DNA of 64,000 nucleotides from Anaeramoeba flamelloides (Eukaryota > Metamonada > Anaeramoebidae). The number at the start of each line of letters is the position of its first letter. Position 1 is the stretch's first letter. The translations under genes were made by a program, and so were the position numbers. Below are positions 29,844 to 35,378 of the stretch, one piece after another. The notes under the pieces were generated by a model, which ran no database searches, was not told where the DNA came from, and saw only the letters and a list, made by a program, of their open reading frames with translations. The stretch spans positions 11,599,001-11,663,000 of the forward strand of contig JANTQA010000070.1 of assembly GCA_027625915.1 (NCBI GenBank). Reading direction: 5' to 3'.

Positions 29844-32800
29844 ATGACATCAAAAATAAAAACACCAGTATTTTCTCTTCCCGAAAATTATATGAGTGAG
29901 GAGAGATATTCTGTTCATGTTCAAACTGATAAACAACTGTACCAACCAGGAGAGTTAATGAATGTGAGGGGATTTGTTGTTCATTATTTAACAAATCGAA
30001 TGTATCCCAGTGGGCAAGATGAAAGGCTCGATCGGATTGTGGGGAAACCATTTTTTTGTTTATTAACCGCGCAAGGAGGGATAGTTCACCAGCAACAAAT
30101 AAAGAGAAGCGAAAATGGGGTCTTGTGCTTCCAGTATCGCATCCCGAAGCACACCAAGGGAGGAGAGTACCGTTGTGAAATCAAGCACCGTTTTGGCCTT
30201 GGCATCCCGACTGGGATAAGAAAGATTGAAATAAGGGAGTTCAGTGTTCCTACACTCAAAAAGGAGCTAACCTTTTTACAAAAAGGAGGGTATGGCTATG
30301 GAGAAAAAGTGAAGGCAGAATTGAAAATTGAAAGAGTTGAAGGTGGGTATCCTGCAAATGCGACTGTTGAGGCTGTGTGTGGCATTGATGGGATTCAAAT
30401 CTGGAAGGAAAGTTTCACGTTAACACAAAAAAACGAAGGGAAAATTACTTTTGAGTTCACCTTACCAAAAGAAATGAAGCAAGGGATTGGTGTCTTATAT
30501 TGCAAAATTAATGATGGCGGGAAAATCGAAAACGTTTCGAGAAGTCTTCCTCTTCTGAGTAAGAAGAAATCAACTGATCAATCAATTTCGAGCATGATTC
30601 CAATCAAGAGCCCACGACTAAGTGTCCACTTTTATCCAGAAGGGGGTGAATTAATCAATGGCTTGAACTGTCGGGTTTATTTTGAAATCCTAAATATGCT
30701 AAACCAGCCTGTTGATTTTTTCGGGAAACTGATCGCAAAAAGGAGAAAAATTGAAACCAATGAGTTAGTGATCGAAAAGGAAATAAAAATTGAAAAAGAG
30801 TATGGTGAAGATAAAGACAATAAACAAGAACAAGAAAAAACAAAAGAAAGCCTAACAGAAAATGATTTACCAATTGTTGAAATAAACTCCATTTTTGAAG
30901 GAAAAGGATCGTTTAGATTCATTCCACGTGAAGAATTTGACTATTATCTTAAAGTTGATACCCCCAAAGGTATTGATGAAACATATCAATTGCCAACTGC
31001 AATAAACAAGGGAATAACAATCTATGCAACGAAACCCAAATACGATTTCAAAAAGCCAATTACATTCCAAATTACATCCTCCGTGAGTGGGAATTATACT
31101 TTAAATTTGTATAAACGTGAGGTGGTCATTGATACCAAGCAACTGAAATTAGAAAAAGGTGTGCTCACAACTATTAATTTGGATCCAGACGAATTTGCTG
31201 GGATTTTACGATTAACGATTTTTGATGAGTCCAATAATTTACCGATTGCAGAAAGACTAGTTTTTGTTCAGCCCAGCAATCATATAAAAATCTTCATAAC
31301 ACCAAATAAGGACATCAAAAGTTACTATCCCGGTGATAAAGTTAAACTTGAAATAAGGACCACAGACAAAGATCTCAACCCGATTCCTACCTTCTGTTCA
31401 ATTAACGTTACTGATGATTCTGTTTATTCTTTACAAAGCAAGGAAAACTTGCCACCATCGTTACCTGAAATGATTTATTTAGAGAACGAAGTCAAAAATT
31501 TAATCAATAGTCATGAGTATTTAATCTATAATAATGATCAAGGAGATAAGAAATCCCAAAATATAGATTTGCTGTTGAGCATCCAGGGGTGGAGAAAATT
31601 CATTTATTATAAAAAGCCCCATGATTTAATTGTTGACGATCAAACAAAACGATTGACTGTTCTCAATTATGAACCAAAATTTAAATTAAAAATCAAAGTA
31701 ATCCATTTCGAACTTAATAAAGACAATAACACAGAGAATAAGGAAGAAACAGAAGAAAATAAAACGCAGTTTGAACTACAAGTTGATCCATATGACGATA
31801 TTATTCGAATCAAAAAAATGATTCAATTACAATTAAATTTACAGCACTTACAAGATACAGAATTATATTTTGAGGAGAAACTGTTAAGAAATGATCATAA
31901 AAATTGTCGTGAATATTTAATAAGGAATGGCTCAACAATAGTCTTTCATAATTACCAATCAAATTTGCCAAACAAAATTACTTTTAAACATAATTCTGAG
32001 ACATACAAATTGTCTGTATCCAAGGGGATCACTTTCAAGGAATTACTCAATTTTTTTGAAACCAAGCTAAATTTGTCGAATTATAAATTGTTGTTAAATG
32101 AAGACAAAAATTTAAGTCTGAATCAAAGTTGGGATCAATTATCGACTTTTGATTTGAATAAAGACTTTATTAAATTACAGATATCTTTAATGCGAATTAT
32201 TATCAAAACTCTGACAGGCAAATCTATTGACATTTTCGCCACGAAAAGTGATACCATTGACAATCTCAAGGCCATGATCCAAGATAAAGAAGGTATTCCA
32301 CCTGATCAGCAACGGCTGATCTTTGCAGGAAAACAATTAGAAGAGGGAAGGACTCTCTCGAATTACAATATCCAAAACGGATCAACCCTTCATTTAGTAT
32401 TAAGGCTACGTGGTGGTAATAATTATAATAATCTGAGTACCGTTGGCAATAATCAATTGCTATTTATAAGTACTTATTCTGGGAAATCTCTTTGTATACC
32501 CTATGAAAAAACAAACGCTGTGAAGGATGTTAAGGAAAAGATTTTCCAAAAAATTAAGATACCCCTTGAAGCACAGCGCTTGAGTTATCAAGGAAAGGAT
32601 TTGCAAAATGAATTAACATTATTCGACTATGGCATTACAAACCAGTCGATTGTTGATATCACTCTATTCCTGAAATTAAAAGGAGGGATGAAAATCTTTA
32701 TCGTTACACTCAGTGGAGAAACCATTGAACTTAGTGTTGCTCCAAACATGACAATTGAAACCATTAAAAGAAAAATCCAATTCAAAACTGAAATACCATA

Positions 32801-35378: not shown

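Follow-up and report, generated by a model that had tools for sequence, protein, structure and literature searches.

A window of 64,000 nucleotides from contig JANTQA010000070.1 of Anaeramoeba flamelloides carries a gene, here called W, that encodes an alpha-2-macroglobulin (A2M) with an array of ubiquitin-like domains in the slot of the protease bait. We confirmed that this architecture is real and repeated. Ubiquitin domains occupied the same slot in 5 of the 14 macroglobulin genes of the genome, located on four contigs: W, L011 (contig C48), L013 and L015 (both on C64), and L014 (C22). Positions given for W are those of the window, and L and C numbers denote other loci and contigs.

The frame of W was stop-free across 1844 residues (Table 1), in agreement with the sequence-only reading that had first drawn attention to the gene. 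It starts about 20 residues ahead of MG2, and no MG1 was seen. Upstream, the GC content was 0.246 over 29001–30000, and the longest plus-strand open stretch was 97 codons (29538–29831). When the 1844-residue protein was scanned with Pfam, the bait-region, ubiquitin, A2M/MG7 and thioester (TED) domains were all found. As in the A2M superfamily, MG2, the bait-region domain and MG7 were present in order, all over the Pfam cut-off. The MG domains, the A2M signature and the thioester motif PYGCFEQTSS, named earlier from the letters, were thus borne out by Pfam and by the motif at residues 1357–1366. The receptor-binding domain was borderline, scoring 18.6 against a cut-off of 21.7 in the whole protein and 22.8 when the C-terminal segment was scanned alone.

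The ubiquitin-like array covered residues ~638–1020, with a Pfam ubiquitin E of 5e-66 and four stretches in the whole protein. Its five segments were also scanned singly against Pfam, the scores being given in Table 1 in bits against the family cut-off. Of the five beta-grasp domains that had been claimed, four passed the cut-off (Ubl1 only just) and Ubl2 fell below it. The count of 59 matches to standard ubiquitin over 76 residues, claimed for the unit that we call Ub3, was exact. Ub3 kept L8, I44, V70 and K48, and K63 was changed. Its C terminus is not free, as more protein follows in frame, and conjugation would need cleavage. The E-values and the four sister genes, which aligned end to end with ubiquitin at the same place, excluded a chance match.

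The position of the slot was defined by motifs common to the family. The N core ended in QGWR(R/K)F in all 14 genes, and the C core, which is the MG7 part, opened with RxYxH...D(F/Y)xxT, RxYxH being present in 13 of 14 (the exception is L036). In all five ubiquitin genes, the ubiquitin domains sat between QGWR(R/K)F and RxYxH. A profile of the family C-terminal parts found its best match in the A2M chain 7von_A (E 2.6e-37), which we take to be human A2M, position 47 of the profile falling on position 727 of the chain. If the human bait region is taken at its usual limits, a few tens of residues at most separate the end of the array or slot of W from the human bait end. Border motifs and profile alignment together supported the earlier placement of the array in the bait-region slot, where it may serve as a bait. 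In A2ML1, the bait and the linker together make up a single insertion of MG6, and conserved residues past the cut site are described as a plug (PMC9156758). Judged by position only, RxYxH is the likely counterpart of that plug.

The family was delimited by combining TED, MG2 and protein searches of the genome (254 Mb, 76 contigs). The TED search alone gave 13 genes and missed L015, and the MG2 search alone gave 13 and missed L034. A protein search with the paralog L033 returned all 14 and none beyond them (25 candidates scored), and further members overlooked by Pfam were rejected on this ground. Pfam counted four ubiquitin stretches in W, two each in L011 and L013, one in L014 and three in L015. 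Some macroglobulin domains of the ubiquitin sisters were below the Pfam cut-off, and the TED of L015 was not found by Pfam. The GCxEQ thioester motif was present in 13 of the 14 genes, and the thioester cysteine likewise. Two family members, L031 (2006–7210, plus strand) and L038 (1960–7146, plus strand), carried a C-terminal SPRY domain. In L011, otherwise full-length, one in-frame stop near 3153 leaves two frames, of 537 and 1594 residues, and may mark a pseudogene, an error or an unusual intron.

The cores of the five ubiquitin genes shared 31–55% (N) and 25–60% (C) pairwise identity. Given this divergence, the fusion of macroglobulin with ubiquitin is old and has been retained through duplication. 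In a tree built from the cores only, the five ubiquitin genes fell on one side of a branch with support 100/100, a placement to be read with the long branch and odd composition of L015 in mind. That side of the branch may reflect one gain or one loss. The actin-bearing gene L034, described below, was nested among genes with low-complexity slots (98/97), apart from the ubiquitin genes, which suggests that domains entered the slot at least twice.

The C-terminal tails of the stronger ubiquitin units were conserved beyond what their bodies would predict. In each of the five genes, one or more units closed with Gly-Gly. Gly-Gly was present in seven of the eight units scoring >100 against ubiquitin, 2.96 being expected from body identity (P 0.002 in a simple model; related units are not independent, and glycine may be kept for other reasons). 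The L8/I44/V70 patch was kept in the main ubiquitin of W, L011, L013 and L014, that is, in four of the five genes. Among the five main units, two kept K48 and one kept K63.

The sister L034 (C48:20565200-20575100) had a complete circularly permuted actin in its slot, made of actin residues 50–373, a Lys/Glu-rich linker, and then residues 2–48 (PDB phmmer E 4.5e-162). The permutation is opened in the D-loop, and the actin ends are adjacent. This domain was identical to the host's own actin at 253 of 369 positions. Of eight nucleotide-contact residues checked, seven were changed (P 0.002, simple binomial). A second circularly permuted actin, with D-loop sequence at both junctions, was observed in the vWA protein L050 (994–4263, plus strand). 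A VIT match lay in the upstream open stretch of L050, separated by a stop that is perhaps an intron. Loss of the nucleotide site was rejected for L050, where five of eight residues were changed, which was not significant. The differences from host actin numbered 115 in L034 and 157 in L050, 25 being common to both. Two long actin frames on C33, L051 and L052, were considered as scaffold inserts and rejected, as by eye they consisted of two tandem actin-like domains. A further VIT protein, L012 (3842–7453, minus strand), carried one ubiquitin and DUF2135; TPR was below the cut-off, and Pfam found no vWA. Actin is a known target of bacterial proteases: grimelysin cleaves it at Gly42-Val43 (PMC7311988), a bond retained in L034, and RavK at Thr351-Phe352 (PMC5298343).

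Where do these proteins reside? No signal peptide was seen in any of the 14 genes when residues 1–46 were scanned for hydropathy in 12-residue windows, a simple measure rather than a trained predictor. The hydropathy maximum lay at residue 25 or later, in or beside MG2, in 13 genes; in L011 it started from residue 4 but was low (0.62). This was judged on genomic frames, and a separate upstream exon is possible. Seven of the 14 genes started with MGN, five of these with Ser at position 6 (MGNxxS, the myristoylation consensus); W has no MGN start. Across the family there was no invariant cysteine column. Because of the missing signal peptides, the MGN starts and the lack of such a column, the family looks cytosolic.

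The eight slots with neither ubiquitin nor actin contained no Pfam domain over the cut-off and were rich in a few kinds of residue. In the closest pair, L032/L033, the slots were 33% identical as against 74% and 83% for the cores. We compared nonsynonymous (dN) and synonymous (dS) divergence in the 15 pairs of six MGN-group genes (L030, L032, L033, L034, L035 and L037). Core dN/dS was 0.07–0.18 where dS was finite, and slot dN was ~2 to 8 times core dN, a rough figure as dS was often saturated and the slot alignments were poor. The slot thus appears to be the fastest-evolving part of the family where measured.

We propose, with a probability of roughly 0.42, that these proteins are intracellular thioester traps whose slot content is swapped between genes, and that the bait of six of them mimics an abundant host protein. 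A protease that attacks ubiquitin, of the deubiquitinase type and coming from invading bacteria, prey or symbionts, would bind the array and cut after Gly858 or Gly948. The cut would free the part that keeps the macroglobulin closed, in the way proposed for the A2ML1 plug (PMC9156758). The thioester Cys1360-Gln1363 would then become exposed and bond the cutter while it is still held by its ubiquitin. The cytosolic location, the cleavage, the capture and the defence role are what we infer from the sequences. More tentatively, one may imagine a whole cytosolic immune system of integrated-decoy thioester traps, with ubiquitin aimed at deubiquitinases, nucleotide-dead permuted actin at actin-cutting proteases, some traps apparently myristoylated to membranes, and VIT-type proteins as a second scaffold.

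Several observations weigh against this proposal. RLRGG followed by a residue other than proline is an ordinary substrate of host deubiquitinases, which should cut there too, so that the protein would be triggered or cut in two with no invader present. L015 (2373–8000, minus strand) has lost the GCxEQ motif and retained its ubiquitin domains. In L014, Pfam finds only a single ubiquitin unit, and the length of the slot is what leads us to presume a true array there. Ub5 of W lacks Gly-Gly, as do the weaker ubiquitin-like units that stood outside the Gly-Gly count, and the ubiquitin of L012 ends in RGD rather than RGG. Ubiquitin (L012) and permuted actin (L050) also occur in VIT-type proteins, and a search of these for macroglobulin domains gave none. 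On the actin side, special conservation of the D-loop was not significant, ten-residue windows being equal or better in 50 of 351 cases for L034 and 141 of 359 for L050, and the RavK site was rejected as a decoy feature, since it is altered in both actins. Finally, dS between W and its relatives was saturated and no dN/dS ratio could be obtained, so that the selection figures above cover other members only. Because of the VIT-type modules, the ordinary D-loop, the thioester loss in L015 and the host deubiquitinases, docking and two-chain processing stay real rivals.

A possibility, though an unlikely one, is that the array and the dead actin serve for docking: they would guide a cytosolic thioester protein, or a VIT-type protein, to receptors that bind ubiquitin or, near ingested bacteria, to the surrounding cytoskeleton, and the slot would simply be a site that tolerates inserts. 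The presence of the same modules in two scaffold families speaks for this, as do the patch kept in four of the five main ubiquitins and the MGN starts of other members, which suggest membrane attachment. Yet all five ubiquitin genes retain the Gly-Gly tail, which binding through the patch does not require, and the modules occupy the A2M bait slot, the family part that evolves fastest where measured. We favoured a bait over simple docking because retention of the tail suggests enzymes that recognise the C terminus of ubiquitin.

Such enzymes could also be the host's own. Host deubiquitinases might cut the precursor after Gly-Gly and yield a two-chain macroglobulin, in the manner of the proprotein cleavage of C3–C5, and the N-terminal chain, closed by a ubiquitin with a free Gly-Gly, might become conjugated itself. 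RLRGG ahead of a non-proline residue suits this idea, and so does the retention of Gly-Gly in five genes out of five. We consider it improbable nonetheless: with nine of the 14 genes devoid of ubiquitin, two-chain processing is not a need of the family, and the actin of L034 offers no such site.

Neutral capture of domains, by a slot that tolerates any insert, is still less probable. It would explain ubiquitin and actin by their high genomic copy number, and indeed the host had at least sixteen actin frames that scored almost equally against the profile, and the matches listed included many loci for polyubiquitin and ubiquitin fusions; the low-complexity slots also drift fast. In contrast, Gly-Gly retention exceeds body identity in the strong units, five old ubiquitin paralogs lie on one side of a tree branch, and a nearly complete actin permuted with adjacent ends is unlikely to persist by drift. 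Lastly, an artefact of assembly or gene model joining two genes, the outcome that would have undone the sequence-only reading, can be dismissed, given the one open frame in W and the same macroglobulin–ubiquitin fusion, in the same part order, in four paralogs elsewhere (L011 with its one in-frame stop), on four contigs in all.

Table 1. Features of W, with positions in the 64,000-nucleotide window
Feature	Residues	Position	Strand	Remark
Whole gene W	1-1844	29844..35378	+	1844-aa single open frame; alpha-2-macroglobulin with ubiquitin array
MG2 domain	24-114	29913..30185	+	Pfam
A2M_BRD, PF07703	392-530	31017..31433	+	Pfam
QGWRKF motif	581-586	31584..31601	+	N-terminal slot border, family-conserved
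Bait slot	587-1061	31602..33026	+	Limits from border motifs
Ubl1	638-702	31755..31949	+	25.9 bits vs cut-off 25.4, marginal
Ubl2	715-762	31986..32129	+	Rad60-SLD only, 15.1 bits vs cut-off 23.8, not significant; plausible only
Ub3	783-858	32190..32417	+	96 bits; 59/76 to standard ubiquitin; ends RLRGG, then N
Gly857-Gly858	857-858	32412..32417	+	Candidate deubiquitinase cut site; putative cleavage
Ubl4	873-948	32460..32687	+	60.7 bits; ends KLKGG, then M
Gly947-Gly948	947-948	32682..32687	+	Second candidate cut site; putative cleavage
Ub5	949-1020	32688..32903	+	74.7 bits; end without Gly-Gly
RQYSH (RxYxH motif)	1062-1066	33027..33041	+	Proposed counterpart of bait-region C-terminal plug
A2M / MG7 domain	1121-1203	33204..33452	+	Pfam
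Thioester domain (TED)	1343-1625	33870..34718	+	Pfam 99.6 bits; profile comparison
Thioester motif PYGCFEQTSS	1357-1366	33912..33941	+	GCxEQ = 1359-1363
Receptor-binding / MG8 domain	1746-1826	35079..35321	+	Borderline in Pfam

Elsewhere in the window, a copine-like frame (15703–16782, plus strand) ended in long Gln/Met-rich repeats, a region open in other frames too, and a very long RasGAP frame (52352–57592, plus strand; PH below cut-off) adjoined a PH-domain frame (49057–52434). The sequence is high in A+T, and the genome has 12 eL40 loci; together with the sixteen actin frames of almost equal score, this fits PMC11550330, which describes the nuclear genome of A. flamelloides as A+T-rich, with massively expanded ribosomal protein genes.

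Relatives were also sought beyond this genome. Three scans of viral contigs gave none that tblastn confirmed. A plasmid search gave no match to the C part, and five Bacteroidota records matched the N part at 22–26% identity. A scan of prokaryote genomes with six short query patterns, by which distant macroglobulins are easily missed, returned two loci, both bacterial ubiquitins. One, L001 of Sphingomonas canadensis (2905–3240, plus strand), is a near-canonical ubiquitin by Pfam that ends in LRLRGG and has an apparent signal peptide by eye; the other, L002 on a contig of a Puniceicoccales metagenome-assembled genome (2938–3687, plus strand), has an apparent signal peptide, again by eye, and a C-terminal extension. 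The sequence-only reading had considered the architecture new. In a literature search limited to titles and abstract starts, with few subscription papers or preprints, none of the papers listed described a macroglobulin whose bait holds ubiquitin or actin; the 14-gene family, the actin in one sister and the absence of a visible signal peptide go beyond what that reading had noted. W is thus a variant of the A2M family for which we found no description, and its reading as a decoy is bold, testable and unproven.

W resembles A2M, A2ML1, CD109 and the insect TEPs in the order of its MG2, bait-region, MG7, TED and C-terminal domains, and the profile of the family C parts matched CD109 at E 2e-36. 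Those proteins are secreted or displayed at the cell surface, their bait is short and unfolded, and none of them is known to have ubiquitin or actin at that place. Unlike them, the family described here shows no signal peptide, and W no MG1. The bacterial A2M YfhM of E. coli has a similar thioester core and gave a weak profile match (E 3e-4); bacterial A2Ms are periplasmic lipoproteins with additional N-terminal domains. Like W, polyubiquitin and ubiquitin fusion precursors contain ubiquitin units that meet a junction with Gly-Gly, whereas the units of W are internal, diverged and flanked on both sides by macroglobulin parts. The VIT-type proteins, which recall inter-alpha-trypsin heavy chains or VWA5A, share ubiquitin (L012) or permuted actin (L050) with the family; they differ in their scaffold, no thioester domain was found in them, and Pfam detected vWA in L050 only. 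In complement C3, C4 and C5, the MG6 insert contains a folded domain, the anaphylatoxin, where the bait would be (PMC9156758). Unlike in C3, C4 and C5, the slot here holds ubiquitin or permuted actin and varies between paralogs.

Alpha-2-macroglobulins and complement are taught as extracellular. If the decoy proposal is true, covalent thioester trapping would take place inside a cell, beside the ubiquitin system. The family would offer a natural design for the covalent capture of deubiquitinases, together with naturally occurring circular permutants of actin that open at the D-loop, and would enable a direct test of whether cleavage at the Gly-Gly of ubiquitin springs the trap. The integrated decoys of plant NLRs are alike in idea only, an effector target being built into an immune protein as bait; W has no NLR domain in Pfam and would act by covalent trapping rather than by signalling. 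The traps proposed here would then parallel these plant decoys in another protein class.
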